A stretch of DNA of 43,358 nt from Bacteroidota bacterium (GTDB lineage: Bacteria > Bacteroidota > Ignavibacteria > UBA10030 > UBA8401), in NCBI GenBank assembly GCA_030679145.1, contig JAUXTU010000064.1:1-43358 (forward strand), read 5' to 3'. The notes below the pieces were generated by a model, which saw only the letters and a program-made list of their open reading frames with translations, did no database searches and was not told the DNA's origin. Below are positions 8,727 through 35,021 of this stretch, piece by piece (position 1 is the stretch's first letter; every line of letters starts with the position of its first letter). A program made the position numbers and the translations under genes.

Positions 8727-8914
8727 TTATTGATTTGCAAGGTACGTTGCATAAATTTGCCCCAACGAAATTCCACCATCATTTGCCGGAATTCGCTGGT
8801 GCCAGTATGGAGTGAAACCATTTCTTCGTAACAATGTAATAGATTGTTCTAATAAAATCATGTTTTGGAAACATCCACCTGAAAGAACTATACGTGGGAT
8901 ATTATTTTTTTTTT
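8727..8914 (-). pseudogene. hypF: Out-of-frame C-terminal segment of HypF
   Basis: This segment continues the HypF protein in the next frame. After the A10 run it reads NNIPRIVLSGGCFQN and then PANDGGISLGQ, the conserved C-terminal block of the Kae1-like carbamoyltransferase domain, up to a stop at 8727. It has no start or ribosome-binding site of its own at the junction and directly abuts the hypF stop at 8902-8904. Removing one base from the run of ten A (8905-8914) would join the two parts into one protein of about 791 residues. It is needed for HypF function, so it is either reached by slippage or reflects a real mutation or a sequencing error. Confidence 0.88.
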
Positions 8915-21672: not shown

Positions 21673-22350
21673 TTATTCCTGTTTATCTTTTTCAATAAAC
21701 TTCCACCCGCCGGCGATTGATGAGATGATACCTCGCCCTTCCACATAATCATGATAAAATACCAGATACACATGGATCATGGAAAAGATGATGAAGAACC
21801 ACATCATTAAATGATGCCATTGCCGCACTGCAAAATCTCCACCCATTAACGGAACTATCCATGCAAACATTTGGGGCAAGAACGATGTGCTCATTGCCGC
21901 ATACATTCCAAAACCGGTAACGCATTGAAATAAAAATGCTAAAAAGGTAATGAAATATGTAAGTCCGGCAAGACTGTTATGACCGATAGATTCTAATGGT
22001 TTTATTTTTGCTTGTAGAATATCCACCTTTAACACTTCATTCATTTCTTCAAACTGCTTTTTCTTTGTCGGAATAAAATTATGCCAGTTCGCATATTTAT
22101 TTCCAACAAATCCCCAGTATATGCGTCCAAGGAAATTAAAGAAAAAGAAAAATGCTGAAACGAAATGAATGAAGCGTACGGTGCCGAACCAGTAATTATC
22201 ATACGCTTCGGTACCGCTTTGAATTGCAAACGGATGTCCAATCAAATATCCAGTACACGCAAGCAGAACTACCGCAAGTGCATTTACCCAATGGTACAAT
22301 CGCACCGGTAACTGCCAAACATATACGCGCTGTATTAATGCATTTTCCAT
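21673..22350 (-). CDS. hyaC: [NiFe]-hydrogenase b-type cytochrome subunit
   Basis: 225 residues with four hydrophobic segments. Haem-ligand candidates fit the HyaC/HydC family: RLYHWVNALAVVLL in the first helix, RFIHFVSAFFFFFN in the second, and WHHLMMWFF with IHVYLVFYHDYVEGRG in the last. This subunit takes electrons from the small-subunit FeS chain to the quinone pool and anchors the enzyme in the membrane. An AGGAGG Shine-Dalgarno sequence lies before the start; the gene follows the large-subunit gene by nine bases. The end GIISSIAGGWKFI is typical of the family. Confidence 0.95.
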   Translation of the reverse strand: MENALIQRVYVWQLPVRLYHWVNALAVVLLACTGYLIGHPFAIQSGTEAYDNYWFGTVRFIHFVSAFFFFFNFLGRIYWGFVGNKYANWHNFIPTKKKQFEEMNEVLKVDILQAKIKPLESIGHNSLAGLTYFITFLAFLFQCVTGFGMYAAMSTSFLPQMFAWIVPLMGGDFAVRQWHHLMMWFFIIFSMIHVYLVFYHDYVEGRGIISSIAGGWKFIEKDKQE

Positions 22351-22359
22351 ACGCGCCTC

Positions 22360-24078
22360 CTAAAATGTGTTAATCTGGTGAACGTACCGTCCTTTTTCAT
22401 CATACAAATGGACTGCGCACGCCAAACACGGATCGAACGAATGGATCGTTCGTAATATTTCCAACGGTTGATCAGGATTACTAATCGGAGTACCGATCAA
22501 TGCAGCTTCATATGCAGACCGCTGCCCGCTCGGATCGCGCGGAGAAGCATTCCATGTGGTTGGAACAACAAGTTGATAATTTTCAATCTTCTTGTCTTTG
22601 ATAACGATCCAATGTGCAAGTGCGCCGCGAGGTGCTTCAGTGAGTCCTACACCTTTGGCTTCACTGGGCCACGAAGAAGGTTCCCATTTATCTTTAACGA
22701 ACATTCTTGAATCACCATTTTTAATGTTCGAAAGAAGCTGTTGATAAAATTCCTTAGCCCAATTCGCCATCAGTTTTGTCTCTATACCGCGTGCGGCAGT
22801 TCTGCCCAGCGTTGAGAACAATGCCCCGACCGGTACATTGAGCGCTTTCAACACACCATTCACCTCTTCAATAACCTCCTTGTTTCCTGAGCCATAAGCG
22901 ACTAGCATTCTGGAAAGCGGTCCCACTTCCATTGCATGACCTTTCCATCGCGGAGTCTTTAACCAGCTGTATTTTTCTTCAATATTTAAATGTTGATACG
23001 GCGGCTTCGGTCCGGTGTATTTCAATTTTGTTTCACCTTGCCATGGATGAATGGCAACATCATCTCCGCCGGCATATTCATACCACGAATGTTTCACGAA
23101 TTCCTGGATCTCTTCAATATTCTTTCCGTCAACTTCGTGTACTTTTGAAAGATCTCTGTTGAGTATTGCACCCCGTTGAAATTTATATTTCGAAACATCT
23201 GCATATCCATTCATCGGAAGATCACCATAACAAAGATAATTTGAAACACCGCCGCCAATTGCTCCCCAATCTTTATAGAATGAAGCGACAGCAAGCAGAT
23301 CCGGAATGTACACTTGATTAACAAATTCATACGCTTGATCCAGCAGCGTTCCAACATACGCCAGACGTTCTGCATTCAACGAATTAGCTTCTTCAATATT
23401 GACTGAACACGGAACTCCGCCAACAAGATAATTCGGATGAGGATTTTTTCCGCCAAAGATCGTGTGAATTTTTACGATCTCTTTTTGCCATTCCAATGCT
23501 TCAAGATAGTGTGCAGTTCCCATCAAATTTGCTTCTGCGGGAAGTTTGTATGCATTATGTCCCCAGTATCCGTTCGCAAAAATACCTAACTGTCCGCTTT
23601 CAACAAATGCTTTCAATCGGTTTTGTACATCGGCAAAATACTTAGGTGAGCTTTTGGGCCAATTGGAAATACTCTGTGCAAGTTCCGAAGTTTTTTTCGG
23701 ATCAGCTTTTAATGCACTGACAACATCAACCCAATCCAATGCATGCAAATGATAAAAATGAACGACGTGATCTTGCAGATACAACGTAGCAAACATAAGA
23801 TTACGGATTAATTCCGCATTTGGAGGAACAACAATGTTCAACGAATCTTCAACAGCACGAACAGATGCCAATGCGTGAACCGTCGTACACACACCGCAGA
23901 CTCGTTCTGTAAATGCCCACGCATCCCGCGGATCGCGACCTTTGAGAATTAATTCAATACCGCGCACCATTGTGCCTGCACTCCATGCATCAACAATTTT
24001 TCCATCTTTTATTTCAGCTTCAATGCGAAGGTGCCCTTCAATTCGGGTAATTGGATCGACAACAATTCGGTTAGACAT
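22360..24078 (-). CDS. hyaB: Uptake [NiFe]-hydrogenase large subunit (group 1, HyaB-like)
   Basis: 572 residues, full length. It binds the Ni-Fe(CN)2CO centre. The N-terminal cysteine pair is C61/C64 in RVCGVCTTVHALAS and the C-terminal pair C551/C554 in DPCLACAVH; RIEGHLRIE is also present. The 15 residues after H557 (LYDEKGRYVHQINTF) form the peptide removed by the M52 protease. The gene overlaps the small-subunit stop by one base and has a GGGAGGTG Shine-Dalgarno sequence. The protein should travel to the periplasmic side with the Tat-signal small subunit. Its resemblance to E. coli Hyd-1 fits the small-subunit evidence. Confidence 0.97.
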   Translation of the reverse strand: MSNRIVVDPITRIEGHLRIEAEIKDGKIVDAWSAGTMVRGIELILKGRDPRDAWAFTERVCGVCTTVHALASVRAVEDSLNIVVPPNAELIRNLMFATLYLQDHVVHFYHLHALDWVDVVSALKADPKKTSELAQSISNWPKSSPKYFADVQNRLKAFVESGQLGIFANGYWGHNAYKLPAEANLMGTAHYLEALEWQKEIVKIHTIFGGKNPHPNYLVGGVPCSVNIEEANSLNAERLAYVGTLLDQAYEFVNQVYIPDLLAVASFYKDWGAIGGGVSNYLCYGDLPMNGYADVSKYKFQRGAILNRDLSKVHEVDGKNIEEIQEFVKHSWYEYAGGDDVAIHPWQGETKLKYTGPKPPYQHLNIEEKYSWLKTPRWKGHAMEVGPLSRMLVAYGSGNKEVIEEVNGVLKALNVPVGALFSTLGRTAARGIETKLMANWAKEFYQQLLSNIKNGDSRMFVKDKWEPSSWPSEAKGVGLTEAPRGALAHWIVIKDKKIENYQLVVPTTWNASPRDPSGQRSAYEAALIGTPISNPDQPLEILRTIHSFDPCLACAVHLYDEKGRYVHQINTF

Positions 24079-25202
24079 TACGCACCTCCCTTGTTAGATG
24101 TTTCTTCTTTTTCAGTACTGCTCGCAATTTCAGCGTTAATAAGTTTTCCTTTTCTAATATTTGTGGAAATAGCATGAGCTGCAATTCCTATTGCAGTTGC
24201 TGCTCCAACAGCAACACCAATGTTATCGGCGGTTGTTTCAATTCCAAAACCTGGGAATGAAGCAAGGTGTTGATAGAATGGACCATTATCCCAGAAATCT
24301 TTTTCGCTGCATCCAATACAACCATGTCCGGATTGGATCGGATAACTGACTCCATTGTTCCATTTCATAATTGCGCACGCATTGTATGTTACCGGACCGC
24401 GGCAGCCCATTTTATACAAACAATATCCTTGACGCGCATTTTCATCATCGAATGATTCAACGAATAAACCGGCATCATAATTTGGACGGCGATAACATGT
24501 ATCGTGAATTCTTCTTGAATAAAATGCTTTCGGTCTTCCAAGTCCATCAAGCTGCGGAATGCGGTCGAATGCCAGCAAATGAACAATCGTTCCCGCCATT
24601 ACTTCTGCTATTGGAGGACAACCCGGAACATTGATGATCGGTTTTCCGGTAATGAGTTTATGAACCGGCGTTGCTGACGTTGGATTTGGTTTTGCTGCTT
24701 GAACGCAGCCGTGCGTTGCACAATTTCCCCACGCAACAATTGCTTTAGCATCAGCGGCAACTTCTTTCAAAATATCAATTGCAGATTTTCCACCAATGCA
24801 GCAATAGACACCATCATCGGCGGTAGGAACTGATCCTTCAACCAATAATAAATATTCACCTTTGTATTTTTTTATTGTATCACTCAGCGATTTTTCCGCT
24901 TGGAATCCTGAAGCCGCCATTAACGTTTCAGTATAATCCAGCGAAATTTTATCCAGCACGATATCCGAAACAACCGGATGAGAAGAACGGATAAACGATT
25001 CACTGCAGCACGTGCATTCTTGGAAATGCATCCACACTACAGGCAAGCGTGGTTTTTTTTCCATTGCATGAATAACTTGACCGACTGCCGACGCTTCAAT
25101 TCCGGCTGCTGCCGCAAGCCACGAACAATATTTGATAAAATCTCGCCGGGAAACTCCCTGCGACTGTGCATGTTCCCAAAGAGTAAGTGGAGTACCGTTC
25201 AT
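24078..25202 (-). CDS. hyaA: Uptake [NiFe]-hydrogenase small subunit, oxygen-tolerant type, Tat signal
   Basis: 374 residues. The twin-arginine signal is SRRDFIKYCSWLAA (18-31). The proximal cluster has six cysteines rather than four: C63, C65 and C66 in ECTCCSESF, C161 and C166 in GNCATHGCVQ, and C195 in VPGCPP. These align with C17/19/20/115/120/149 of E. coli Hyd-1, where the two extra cysteines form the [4Fe-3S] centre that confers oxygen tolerance. Distal and medial cluster ligands follow (HDTCYRR, GYCLYKMGC, TYNAC, GHGCIGC). A C-terminal membrane helix is near 327-347. It overlaps the leader ORF by four bases and has an AGGAGG Shine-Dalgarno sequence. The Hyd-1 comparison is from memory. 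Confidence 0.97.
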   Translation of the reverse strand: MNGTPLTLWEHAQSQGVSRRDFIKYCSWLAAAAGIEASAVGQVIHAMEKKPRLPVVWMHFQECTCCSESFIRSSHPVVSDIVLDKISLDYTETLMAASGFQAEKSLSDTIKKYKGEYLLLVEGSVPTADDGVYCCIGGKSAIDILKEVAADAKAIVAWGNCATHGCVQAAKPNPTSATPVHKLITGKPIINVPGCPPIAEVMAGTIVHLLAFDRIPQLDGLGRPKAFYSRRIHDTCYRRPNYDAGLFVESFDDENARQGYCLYKMGCRGPVTYNACAIMKWNNGVSYPIQSGHGCIGCSEKDFWDNGPFYQHLASFPGFGIETTADNIGVAVGAATAIGIAAHAISTNIRKGKLINAEIASSTEKEETSNKGGA

Positions 25203-25423
25203 TTCTGCCTCCTAGGTATTGGTTGAAAATTTATTGAGTTGAATAAAAACGTAATTTCTATCGTTGCTTCATCACCAAGATGAGCATCGTTGATCTCATC
25301 TACTTCAATGGTGAACGGCTTGATGAGAAGAGTCGTGACAGGCTTTTCTTCTTTTTGAAAGACACCAACCACTTCTGCAGTGATTGAGGCATTTTGAATG
25401 GGAGTAGTTGGAGAAATTGACAT
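25199..25423 (-). CDS. Small beta-rich protein leading the uptake hydrogenase operon
   Basis: 74 residues, not recognised. No signal peptide, no cysteines. Alternating hydrophobic pattern (ASITAEVVGVF, TTLLIKPFTIEV, EATIEITFLF) with a DAHLGDEA turn suggests a small beta-barrel or sandwich. The stop overlaps the hyaA start by four bases and the start lies about 17 bases after the predicted sigma-54 transcription start, so this is the first gene of the operon. Possible roles are a small-subunit chaperone (HyaE/HoxO-like position) or a translation leader. No clear Shine-Dalgarno sequence; the upstream bases can form a TGTTGA/TCAACA hairpin. Confidence 0.6.
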   Translation of the reverse strand: MSISPTTPIQNASITAEVVGVFQKEEKPVTTLLIKPFTIEVDEINDAHLGDEATIEITFLFNSINFQPIPRRQK

Positions 25424-25450
25424 AATGTGTTGTTGAATTGCTCAACACAC

Positions 25451-25466
25451 TGCAATAACAATGCCA
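25451..25466 (-). promoter_or_regulatory. Sigma-54 promoter of the uptake hydrogenase operon
   Basis: Minus-strand TGGCATTGTTATTGCA matches the sigma-54 consensus TGGCAC-N5-TTGCA at all but one of its defined positions, with GG and GC at the required 10-base spacing. The transcription start would be near 25439, 16-17 bases before the leader ORF. A sigma-54 activator gene lies directly upstream, and tandem dyads sit at a proper enhancer distance. Confidence 0.72.
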
Positions 25467-25515
25467 GTTAAAAACGATGTTTTTTAAGGAATTAGTTGAA
25501 GTGAAGAATTGAAGT

Positions 25516-25553
25516 AACGGATTTCCGCTCGACGATAAACGGATTTCCGTTTA
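25516..25553 (-). promoter_or_regulatory. Tandem dyads upstream of the sigma-54 promoter, candidate activator site
   Basis: AACGGATTTCCG occurs twice (25516-25527 and 25538-25549), start to start 22 bases, close to two helical turns. Each copy is a CGGA-TT-TCCG dyad; the distal one extends to TAAACGGA-TT-TCCGTTTA (25536-25553). They lie roughly 75-115 bases before the predicted transcription start, the usual place for binding sites of sigma-54 activators. Confidence 0.5.
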
Positions 25554-25556
25554 AGA

Positions 25557-25595
25557 AGTAAAAAACCTTCCAAGTTTTAGAAACTTGGAAGGTTT
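25557..25595 (-). terminator. Intrinsic terminator after the sigma-54 activator gene
   Basis: Perfect 15-base stem (25563-25577 and 25581-25595) with a three-base TAG loop, followed on the minus strand by six T. It ends the activator transcript just before the hydrogenase enhancer region. The stem sequence AACCTTCCAAGTTT resembles a dispersed repeat. Confidence 0.85.
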
Positions 25596-25623
25596 AGAGT
25601 AAACCGGGAATCTCCATGATTTT

Positions 25624-26640
25624 TTATTCTTCTAAACTATATTTTTTAAGTTTATCTCGAAGTGTTGAAGGGCTTAGATTTAAAATTTTTGCGGCTTGTG
25701 TTCTGTTACCGTCGGATTTGAGCAGTGCTTGTTTCACAAGATTCATTTCAAGACAGTTCACGACTTCTTCAAAGCTCATCTTTTCTTCAACAAGACATTT
25801 ATTGCAAGCTTTTAAGATCGATTCGAGTGAACTGCTCGCATGAATTTCCGAAGGAAGATTTTTAGGCGTAATTGATCCGTTCGCAAATATCGCCATTCGC
25901 TGAACCACATTCCGCAATTCACGGATATTTCCGGGCCAATCATACGATTTCAATATTTGCATTGCTTCATCAATTACTTCAACAGGACGGTCCGGTATGA
26001 ATCGTTTTAGAAAATGATGGATCAAGATCGGAATATCGTCCCGACGCGAACGGAGAGGTGGGATGTAAATAGGAACAACATTGATCCTATAGTAGAGATC
26101 CGAACGGAACATGTTCTTATCTACCAAAACTTTTAGATCTATTTTTGATGCGCAGATCACTCGAACGTTTACCGGAATGGGAACCGTTCCGCCAACACGC
26201 ATTAATTCACGTGATTCAAGAACTCGAAGAAGTTTGGATTGTAAATGAATTGGAAAATCATCAATGTCATCGAGAAAAATACTCCCCGACTCTGCTAATT
26301 CAAACAATCCTTTTTTTTCTGTTCCCGCACCGGTGTATGCACCTTTTTCGTGTCCGAACAATTCGCTTTCCAATAATTCAGCAGGAAGAGAAGCAAGACC
26401 CACTTTTACGAACGGTAAATTATCACGATTGCTTTTTTTATGGATGTATTCGGCAAACAATTCTTTGCCAACACCTGTTTCACCAACCAGCAATATGGAT
26501 GAATCCGAAAGAGCAGCAGTTTCAACATGCTCTAATAATTCCCGCATGATCGTGCTTTGAGCTATCAATGTTAAGGACGAAGTCGGACTCATAACTCCTG
26601 ATTTTTGCAGAAATGTAGGCAGGGAGAACGAAAAAAGCAA
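25624..26640 (-). CDS. Single-domain sigma-54 activator (bEBP) with altered motifs
   Basis: 338 residues: an AAA+ activator domain (about 22-250) and a Fis-type helix-turn-helix (SDGNRTQAAKILNLSPSTLRD, about 309-330), with no N-terminal receiver or ligand domain. Walker A is GETGVGKE (53-60). The sigma-54 contact loop is GAYTGA (100-105) instead of GAFTGA. Walker B is GSIFLDDID (119-127), where the catalytic glutamate of the usual DE pair is Asp. Arginine fingers (FRSDLYYRINV) and the sensor 2 region (WPGNIRELRNVV) are normal. It lies directly upstream of the hydrogenase promoter and is the natural activator of it, in the role of HoxA/HupR, but how it is controlled is unclear without a sensory domain. 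A methionine at residue 17 is an alternative start. Confidence 0.9.
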   Translation of the reverse strand: MLFSFSLPTFLQKSGVMSPTSSLTLIAQSTIMRELLEHVETAALSDSSILLVGETGVGKELFAEYIHKKSNRDNLPFVKVGLASLPAELLESELFGHEKGAYTGAGTEKKGLFELAESGSIFLDDIDDFPIHLQSKLLRVLESRELMRVGGTVPIPVNVRVICASKIDLKVLVDKNMFRSDLYYRINVVPIYIPPLRSRRDDIPILIHHFLKRFIPDRPVEVIDEAMQILKSYDWPGNIRELRNVVQRMAIFANGSITPKNLPSEIHASSSLESILKACNKCLVEEKMSFEEVVNCLEMNLVKQALLKSDGNRTQAAKILNLSPSTLRDKLKKYSLEE

Positions 26641-28401: not shown

Positions 28402-29856
28402 TTACTCTTTCTTCTTTTGATCGATCAATTTTTCGCGTGCATCGTATAGCGAGATCTCCAACGGCATCTGTCCGTACGCATGGGTTGCGCAACTCAAGCA
28501 CGGATCGTACGCACGGATGGCAACTTCAATCGCATTCATCATCGGTTCGGTGATCTCTTTCTTTCCGGTCATCATGGATTTTGCAACCTGGTTTACTGCC
28601 CGATTCATCGGTTCATTATTGTGCGTTGTTGAAACAATAAGATTTGCCATTGCGATCTGATCATTGTCGTTGATGCGATAATGATGAAATAGTGTCCCGC
28701 GCGGTGCCTCAATAACGCCGACTCCTTCATGTCTCTTTTCTCCTGTCCGCACAAGTTCATTTCCTTGCAGATCAGAATCATTCAGAAGGTCACGGATCAC
28801 TTCTGCGGCGTGAAGCAGTTCTATTAAACGTGCATAATGTGTATGCATGCACATATTGTTCGGCTTGCCATTTGTGAGAGCTTTGTATATTTCAAATTCC
28901 GTCTGTGCCAGCGGAGAGGGGATAAAATTGCAGGTATTGAGCCGTGCCAATGGTCCAACCCGATACCACCCGCCGTTTTCTCCTATTTCAGCAATATATG
29001 GAAACTTCATATAACTCCACGACCGCACTTCTTCGTGGATGTAATTGAAATATTCCTGATAATTTACATCGTGTAATATTACCACACCTTCGTTGTCAAT
29101 CGCTCGGATTGCTCCATGATAGAAATCAAGTGCACCGTCCTTACCAACAAGGCTTAAATGATTTGATGGAAAGACAGAAAACGTATCGATGAATTTTTTA
29201 TTTTTTTTATAATATCCTTTGAAGAAATCGATCGCCGATTGCGCCCAGGCGATCATCGCTTCGGGGTTCATCGGTGATTCACCTTTTGTGAATTTATCGC
29301 GCTCTTCTTCAGATAAATTCTTATTTACTCCACCGGGAATTGCACCAGTGCCGTGAATTTTCTTTCCCGCAGTTGCCTGTATCAGTTCCTGACCAAATTT
29401 CCTCATCATCACCCCCTGAATGGCAAGGTCTTTATTTGCGCGCGCAACGCCGACGATGTTTCGAATTTTTGGATCGGCATCAATTCCAAACAAAAGATCT
29501 GGTGATGCTAAATGAAAGAAATGTAAAGCGTGCGATTGAAAAATTTGCGCGTAGTGCATTAGCCGCCTAACTTTTTCTGCGGTATGTGAAAGACCGTGTC
29601 CGGTTCCTGCGCCAACGATAACATCTAATGCTTTTGCTGCAGCAAGATGATGACTGACAGGACAAATTCCGCATAGACGTTGGACAAGTACAGGCGCTTC
29701 CCAGTACGGTCTGCCTTGAACGAAACGTTCGAATCCGCGAAATTCTACAATATGCAGACGGCTCCGCACAACATTTCCTTCATCATCAAGATGGATCGTA
29801 ACTTTTCCGTGTCCTTCAACTCGGGTAATAGGGTCAATCGTAATTTTTTGTGACAT
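28402..29856 (-). CDS. hoxH: NAD-linked [NiFe]-hydrogenase large subunit HoxH (Ralstonia SH-type operon)
   Basis: 484 residues. Active-site cysteines are C62/C65 in QRLCGICPVSHH and C453/C456 in DPCLSCATH; ITRVEGHGKVTI opens the protein. The tail after H459 (AYGQMPLEI ... DQKKKE, 25 residues) is the maturation peptide. It forms the hydrogenase module with HoxY and passes electrons to the HoxFU diaphorase for NAD reduction, in the cytoplasm (no signal). The gene is separated from hoxY by a 250-base palindromic repeat region and is followed by hoxW after one base. Group 3d assignment follows from the operon partners. Confidence 0.96.
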   Translation of the reverse strand: MSQKITIDPITRVEGHGKVTIHLDDEGNVVRSRLHIVEFRGFERFVQGRPYWEAPVLVQRLCGICPVSHHLAAAKALDVIVGAGTGHGLSHTAEKVRRLMHYAQIFQSHALHFFHLASPDLLFGIDADPKIRNIVGVARANKDLAIQGVMMRKFGQELIQATAGKKIHGTGAIPGGVNKNLSEEERDKFTKGESPMNPEAMIAWAQSAIDFFKGYYKKNKKFIDTFSVFPSNHLSLVGKDGALDFYHGAIRAIDNEGVVILHDVNYQEYFNYIHEEVRSWSYMKFPYIAEIGENGGWYRVGPLARLNTCNFIPSPLAQTEFEIYKALTNGKPNNMCMHTHYARLIELLHAAEVIRDLLNDSDLQGNELVRTGEKRHEGVGVIEAPRGTLFHHYRINDNDQIAMANLIVSTTHNNEPMNRAVNQVAKSMMTGKKEITEPMMNAIEVAIRAYDPCLSCATHAYGQMPLEISLYDAREKLIDQKKKE

Positions 29857-33593: not shown

Positions 33594-35021
33594 TTATCGT
33601 TTAACCATGTCAAGTAAGTACCCATCACTATCCAACATTTGTATTTCCAGCGGCATTTGTCCCGCTGCGTGAGTAGAACAGCTTAAACACGGATCGTAAC
33701 ACCGGATACCTGCTTCGACTCTATTCAATATCGGTTCAGTAATTTTTTTCCCGTCAATAAATCGCATCGCAATTTGTTTTATCGTACGATTCATTGCCAT
33801 ATTATTTTGCGCTGTTGCAATTAACATATTCACTTTTTGTATCACACCATTTTCATCTACGTTGTAATGATGAAACAGTGTTCCGCGCGGAGCTTCTGCA
33901 AAGCCTACACCTTCCAACCGATTGATCTCCGCTTTTGAACGGACATGCGTTCCAAGAATTGTTGGATCGTGAAGCAGCTCCTCAATTTTCTCGACGGCAA
34001 AAACCGTTTCGATCATTCGCGCATAATGGTAATAGAACGAGTTGTTCACTGATTCCATTTTGGGAGCCAAAAGCTTGAACATTCGCCGTTCCTTTTCAGC
34101 AAGCGGCGTTTCAATAGAATCGCAGATATTCAATCGCGCCAATGGACCGACACGATAGATTCCTTTTGGATAACCAAGTGGTTTATAATACGGGAATTTT
34201 AGATATGACCACGATTCGCTTGCTTCGCCAAAATGTTTGTAATAGTCGCGCGGATCTATACTGTCTGCTATAATATTTCCTGCGCTATCCATAATGCGAA
34301 GCGTGCCTCCGTAATATTCTAATTCTCCTTTTGGACCCACAAGGCCGACATAGAGCGAATGGAAGTTTCCAAAACTCGGAATCTCCGCATGGAATTTCTC
34401 ATGAGTTTTTTTGATAACATCAACAGCAAGAAGCGCCGTTTCCTTCACTTCCGGAAACCATTCGAGAAGTGTGTCGCGTTCTTCTTTTGTAAATGGTTCG
34501 CGGACTCCCCCTGCAACAGCCCACGGCGTATGAATTCTTCGCCCGCCGAGAAATTCAATGATCTGCTGACCGAACTTGCGAAGACGAATTCCGCGTCGCG
34601 CAAAATCCTTATCAAGCTGCATCAATCCAAAAATATTTCGCACCGCGGGATCTGCGTCAAATCCCAGCAGAAAATCGGGGGAAGAAAGATGGAAAAAACT
34701 GAGCGCATGCGATTGAATCCATTGAGCAAGCGTCAGCATACGACGAAGTTTCTCTGCAGTTTCCGGAATTCCGATTGCCAGAATATCATCACCTGCTTTT
34801 GCGGAAGTAACAAGATGGCTCGCCGGACAGATTCCGCAAATACGCGAAGTCAATCCCGGCATTTCCCATAATAATCTTCCTTCACAGAATTTTTCAAAAC
34901 CGCGAAATTCGTTCACGTGAAATCGTGCATCATCCACTTCCCCTTTTGAGTTTAAGTGGATAGTGATCTTTGCATGACCTTCAATTCGTGATACCGGTGA
35001 TATTGTAATAATGTTAGACAT
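33594..35021 (-). CDS. hoxH: NAD-linked [NiFe]-hydrogenase large subunit HoxH (HoxEFU-type operon)
   Basis: 475 residues. Active-site cysteines are C62/C65 in [11 protein letters not shown] and C445/C448 in [20 protein letters not shown] opens the protein. A 24-residue maturation tail (AAGQMPLEI ... DMVKR) follows H451. It resembles the HoxH at 28402-29856 in layout, but is clearly diverged and not a recent duplicate. Cytoplasmic, working with HoxY at 35136. Last gene of its operon; no protease gene follows, so cleavage must rely on HoxW or the HybD-like protease elsewhere in the window. The 114-base gap to hoxY holds short ATTCAATCA-like repeats. Confidence 0.96.

Follow-up and report, generated by a model that had tools for sequence, protein, structure and literature searches.

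The stretch analysed here (the window), 43,358 nucleotides that make up the whole of contig JAUXTU010000064.1 of the Bacteroidota bacterium assembly GCA_030679145.1 (Ignavibacteria; UBA10030; UBA8401), carries on its minus strand, in this order, the gene of a sigma-54 activator, a terminator hairpin, a distal dyad, a proximal dyad, a sigma-54 box, an open reading frame (ORF) of 74 codons, and the genes of a [NiFe] hydrogenase small subunit, large subunit and cytochrome b (Table 1). The original prediction took this arrangement for enhancer-dependent control of the hydrogenase, with the two dyads as the DNA target of the adjacent activator, and we have followed up this proposal by comparison with related genomes, which are designated below by G numbers and their loci by L numbers.

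Table 1. Positions of the genes and predicted regulatory features at the hydrogenase locus and of features at related loci
Feature	Position	Strand	Remarks
Hydrogenase b-type cytochrome subunit	21673-22350	-	
[NiFe] hydrogenase large subunit	22360-24078	-	
[NiFe] hydrogenase small subunit	24078-25202	-	closest to oxygen-tolerant HoxK and Hyd-1
Small ORF, 74 amino acids	25199-25423	-	first gene of operon; weakly HypC-like; unannotated
Predicted sigma-54 (-24/-12) promoter, TGGCATTGTTATTGCA	25451-25466	-	exact sequence; position conserved in orthologous loci
Proximal putative enhancer dyad, core CGGATTTCCG at 25518-25527	25515-25530		centre about -82; exact sequence; pair conserved
Distal putative enhancer dyad, AAACGGATTTCCGTTT, core at 25540-25549	25537-25552		centre about -104; exact sequence; pair conserved
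Predicted intrinsic terminator of activator gene	25563-25595	-	hairpin; between activator and hydrogenase operon
Sigma-54 activator, AAA+ domain and Fis-type helix-turn-helix	25624-26640	-	listed start TTG 26640
Codons of C279, C282 and C296 (C-x2-C-x13-C)	25753-25806	-	linker between AAA+ lid and helix-turn-helix
Duplicated enhancer-promoter module (putative)	L169 6404-6505 (G089); L167 5954-6057 (G088)	strand of activator	
Split large-subunit matches	L167 7124-8680; L168 7367-9083; L169 7698-9330; L172 7928-9494	activator strand	

The sequence proposed as the best sigma-54 match in the window, TGGCATTGTTATTGCA, is present exactly and is the sole TGGCA-N6-TTGC of the contig; it fits the GG-N10-GC spacing of sigma-54 promoters, with an activator-type site upstream. 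The home genome holds one copy of rpoN, and a scan of 25200-25700 for sigma-70 promoters gave no candidate. With +1 placed 12 bases past the C of the -12 element, transcription would start near 25440 and the dyads sit at -76 to -87 and -98 to -109, so that the two dyads expected 22 bases apart at about -75 to -115 are found as an exact pair. The 12-mer AACGGATTTCCG is repeated without change at 25516-25527 and 25538-25549, 22 base pairs (bp) from start to start, and the distal dyad extends to a longer palindrome, TAAACGGA-TT-TCCGTTTA, at 25536-25553. The activator gene does end just beyond them, its stop at 25624 lying on the far side of the terminator hairpin as seen from the promoter; the hairpin has a free energy (dG) of -19.2 kcal/mol, and none of 200 shuffles was equally stable.

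It is the exact pair that is remarkable here, a single dyad being unremarkable because, with up to two mismatches allowed, the 12-mer turns up 12 times in the window where 5.6 matches would be expected. When the dyad model is derived from genomes other than the home genome, the home pair scores 34.9, and 300 shuffles of the region gave no score as high. The runner-up in the window, a weak pair near 8763 with a score of 9.1, was dropped because it falls within coding sequence, where a reading frame ends in what was read as the HypF motif. The core CGGATTTCCG has 18 sites in the home genome and, among the loci fetched, forms a close pair at this locus only; no further pair was seen in the loci fetched for 30 of the 33 sigma-54-like boxes and for all 18 exact dyads (best score 10.9 against 36.3). 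A genome search for dyad pairs upstream of TGGCA-N6-TTGC, carried out with the strict pattern defined below, likewise matches one place in the home genome, namely this locus.

In 60 relatives, a protein search identified ten close activator homologues, all of them short, with identities of 53-88%, and a close relative of the hydrogenase follows the activator in eight of these ten loci, with a distant hydrogenase in G039 and none within the stretch in G040. The DNA past each activator contains a pair of CGG-N4-CCG-type dyads, 21-22 bp apart, together with a sigma-54-like box. Across the 98 genomes of the order, the activator is present in 18 (17 by profile search, and G096, in which the gene is cut by the contig end), and all 18 have the dyad pair and a downstream sigma-54-like box. 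A strict pattern, consisting of the box, 54-64 bases, a half-dyad, 11-12 bases and a dyad, was matched in 14 of the 98 genomes and in none when reversed as a control, and 13 of the 14 matches adjoin the activator gene; a match in G002, isolated in a genome without the activator, was counted as spurious. The association of pattern and activator has a Fisher p of 2e-11, a statistic that ignores shared ancestry.

The hydrogenase itself provides a further comparison, as relatives of the large subunit with at least 74% identity occur in 17 of the 98 genomes, 15 of them with the activator. The two without it are G015, cut at the contig end, and G025, in which the hydrogenase is 77-80% identical and the 5.5 kb examined upstream contain no activator and no box, the best pair score being -5.3. 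G025 is a real control, in which the activator is gone, the dyads are gone and the hydrogenase is kept. For four hydrogenases of another clade (45-48% identity; G006, G002, G018 and G058), no pair was found in the stretches examined, some of which are short.

Pairs were scored in 29 regions, the genome being tested excluded from the dyad model each time, and compared with 300 shuffles of each region, and in 26 of them the best pair was unmatched by any shuffle. Shuffles reached the pair score once in G088, three times in G040 and eight times in G078, the latter two counts arising because the scored region cut off the distal dyad; when the region is whole, the G040 pair scores 31.3. As a negative control, the best score in the DNA after 100 of 102 other activators was 9.2, against a median of 31.4 for the positives. 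The distance from the centre of the proximal dyad to the -12 base is 71-74 bp in 20 of the 29 regions, 82-85 bp in five and 148-150 bp in three, and in the remaining region, that of G040, the spacing was mis-picked by the automatic choice and is 72 bp by hand. The 71-74 and 82-85 bp groups differ by about one helical turn, which is what a need for the activator to face the polymerase would predict. In the negative control, the highest score came from L073 (3492-4412), a longer activator from an unclassified bacterium that is a weakly supported sister of the activator clade described below and has no such cysteines, with degenerate dyads and a TGGCATTGTTCTTGA box downstream.

Given that within the order the dyads lie directly after the activator stop, and in G040 overlap the stop region, they might instead serve the activator gene's own control or the end of its transcript, as an autoregulatory site, terminator or attenuator, and lie near the hydrogenase promoter through adjacency. 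We regard this as most improbable, as the terminator is a separate hairpin, the distance from dyads to box is conserved and the dyads stay with the hydrogenase where gene order differs. In family f22 of another class (G098, G102, G107 and G111), the activator and the hydrogenase operon are convergent; the operon comprises the small and large subunits, the cytochrome and, after them, a short gene read as that of a maturation protease. The dyad pair stands upstream of the small subunit, away from the activator, in all four genomes. In addition, a second pair and box, putatively a duplicate of the enhancer-promoter module, separate the small ORF from the hydrogenase in G089 and G088, and in G039 another pair precedes a NiFeSe-type hydrogenase (large subunit 38% identical), with a weak box two turns further off. 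Judged by gene order, the dyads follow the target promoter and not the activator gene.

Other genes occupy the target position in some genomes. G392 has a second activator copy, after which come a pair, a box, a maturation protease and genes of Hdr type; in G040, the pair and box precede a QmoC/HdrC-like iron-sulphur gene, with a similar reading frame in G078; and in G230 and G350 secreted proteins come after the small ORF, with a multihaem cytochrome in G350. Relatives also carry secretion-tail domains, which would fit the Bacteroidota/Ignavibacteria branch. The common thread of these predicted targets is hydrogen and low-potential electron transfer, and what appears to be the same switch is found next to hydrogenase genes in further families and classes of the phylum.

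A different, unlinked regulator could also bind the dyads while the adjacent activator acts elsewhere or without a defined site, and the single palindromes of this kind elsewhere in the genome, the 18 core sites mentioned above, would suit such a regulator. Against it, the pair and the activator co-occur, the pair is missing where the hydrogenase has been retained without the activator, and sigma-54 activators usually bind at paired, phased sites some 80-105 bp upstream of the -24/-12 box, which makes this alternative improbable.

Several observations count against assigning the dyads and box to the adjacent activator. The box alone is unconvincing, because TGGCA-N6-TTGC occurs 33 times in the 3.83 Mb genome against 30 times for the reversed pattern and so is not above chance, and its support comes from the cross-genome comparison. 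Moreover, the box deviates in several genomes (ATGA at -12 in G049, G088 and G090; TGGTA in G017; CGGCA-N6-TTGT in G078) and is weak in several members of other orders. G350 has the activator, yet its dyads are degenerate (the pair passes the shuffles with a score of -1.4), and the co-occurrence counts are drawn from related genomes. The dyads are also weakened elsewhere, the proximal one being altered in G088 and G090 and one half-site in G087, G096, G039 and G049.

On balance, the co-occurrence, the phasing, the dyads following the hydrogenase promoter and the loss of the dyads without the activator strongly support the proposed enhancer-dependent layout, and we put at roughly 0.87 the probability that the adjacent activator controls the hydrogenase operon with sigma-54 through the two dyads, the sensing step not included. 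The sequence elements, how they are conserved, spaced and shared among genomes, and the protein domains are observed, whereas binding of the activator to the dyads, the start site and the input signal are inferred. The oligomeric activator would bind the two CGGAAWTCCG-type dyads two helical turns apart, loop to RNA polymerase holding sigma-54 at TGGCATTGTTATTGCA and open the promoter with its AAA+ ATPase, and the transcript from about 25440 would carry the small ORF, both hydrogenase subunits and cytochrome b. That the promoter drives the uptake hydrogenase thus holds as far as sigma-54 control has comparative support, but the first gene it would serve is the 74-codon ORF and not the small subunit.

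The activator itself more likely starts at ATG 26592 than at the listed TTG. Its Pfam matches above cut-off are Sigma54_activat, from residue 25, and HTH_8, with nothing before the AAA+ domain, and among the 25 NCBIfam matches listed it falls below the cut-off of every equivalog. Its loop reads GAYTGA, with GAYTSA or GAFTSA also seen in relatives. Among the matches listed in a scan of named genomes there were general activators only. The linker motif C-x2-C-x13-C is present in 25 of 25 members of the clade examined, where the three cysteines are invariant down to about 47% identity, and in 0 of 102 other activators; the clade forms one side of a branch with a Shimodaira-Hasegawa-like approximate likelihood ratio (SH-aLRT) support of 99, in a tree of the AAA+ columns only with 80 of 127 sequences. 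In an AlphaFold model (mean predicted local distance difference test, pLDDT, 88), C279 and C282 lie towards the end of helix 264-285, and C296 lies in the following helix, 290-308; C279 and C296, equally far from the turn, could thus face each other.

Since the activator has no sensor domain, input through these cysteines beside the DNA-binding domain, as a thiol or metal/iron-sulphur switch, seems the most likely route, although it is the least certain step of the mechanism. Direct sensing of redox state or metal is favoured by the missing sensor domain, the invariant linker cysteines and the precedent of the NifA linker, and we consider the chance that the activator works in this manner nearly even. 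The linker is, to the detriment of this idea, the less confident part of the model (pLDDT about 66), and the three cysteines could be structural instead of sensory. In the latter case they would hold the fold or make a protein contact, and the activator would be constitutive, its amount setting the output, or be held by a partner in the manner of PspA with PspF, an activator that likewise has no sensor domain; the invariance of the cysteines in all 25 members and the fact that the targets of the clade are redox enzymes argue against this alternative, whose chance we rate as somewhat short of even. As to direct sensing by the clade as a whole, we tentatively propose, at slightly less than even odds, that a hydrogenase-dedicated activator clade spread across several classes of one phylum senses redox, oxygen or a metal/iron-sulphur cluster via a C-x2-C-x13-C helical hairpin beside its DNA-binding domain, and forms, with enhancer and promoter, a one-component hydrogen-uptake switch that travels as a unit among different hydrogenases and related electron-transfer operons.

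Known activators resemble this one in part. PspF consists, like the activator here, of an AAA+ domain plus helix-turn-helix without a sensor domain; it is held by PspA and lacks the cysteine motif that the present activator carries, and the PspF profile gives 258.4 of the 443.55 bits required, far below cut-off. NifA has an AAA+ domain and a Fis-type helix-turn-helix plus an N-terminal domain. With rhizobial NifA the activator shares the first two of these domains, but it has no N-terminal domain, and it reaches 316.6 of the 528.85 bits needed for the NifA equivalog, below cut-off. Its three invariant linker cysteines before the helix-turn-helix are spaced C-x2-C-x13-C, which differs from the spacing in NifA. 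The oxygen sensitivity of NifA is thought to be due to a metal-binding cysteine motif in such a linker (PMC7888657). Sigma-54 control of uptake hydrogenases is already known via HoxA: according to PMC10073562, HoxA and sigma-54 act at the promoters of two Cupriavidus necator hydrogenases, possibly with IHF, and HoxA, a response regulator, receives its signal from the histidine kinase HoxJ together with a regulatory hydrogenase. The sigma-54-dependent activation of an uptake hydrogenase operon predicted here is shared with HoxA/HupR, whereas HoxA has a receiver domain and the present activator has no Response_reg match.

Comparison of upstream sites is an accepted way to reconstruct the regulons of activators (PMC6615313). 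In the open-licence literature we found no paper on this activator or operator, from which absence from print overall does not follow; as far as that literature shows, what is new is the clade, which has cysteines but no sensor domain, together with its operator and its association with hydrogenases. An unnamed activator family would thereby gain an operator, a promoter and a regulon, and hydrogen-oxidation control in this phylum a concrete model that does without the two-component H2-sensing pathway known from Cupriavidus. Three residues are, in addition, singled out as candidates for direct redox or metal sensing by a sigma-54 activator.

The solved structures closest to the hydrogenase small subunit are Cupriavidus HoxK and E. 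coli hydrogenase 1, and its ECTCCSES segment and the Cys before IGG align with HoxK, so that the extra cysteines near the proximal cluster are present. Such cysteines have been linked to the oxygen tolerance of membrane-bound [NiFe] hydrogenases. Conservation of the small ORF extends past the order: the 16 aligned sequences retain an open frame and an LGD motif (LEA in one), whereas no such ORF was found in G107, G111 and G102. It has no significant Pfam or NCBIfam match, the Pfam HypC profile matching two of 16 members with a best E of 0.016, and a profile comparison with HypC/HupF aligned 56 columns at a probability of 80% (P 1.4e-5). This alignment weakly suggests a HypC-like barrel without the N-terminal cysteine, as the ORF, unlike HypC/HupF, lacks the N-terminal MCLAIPG and has no Met-Cys start.

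Upstream of the activator and on the same strand, two VhuA-like hydrogenase large subunits (28402-29856 and 33594-35021) are 45% identical to each other, and the window therefore has at least three [NiFe] hydrogenase large subunits. In G030 (L053 7129-14893, activator strand), the genes of the small and large subunits, neighbours at the other loci, are separated by about 5 kb that contain a Ycf48-like match. The large-subunit match is split in G088, G090, G089 and G097, with about 56-84 residues missing in G088 and G097, and sequencing errors, gene decay or inserts are candidate causes.
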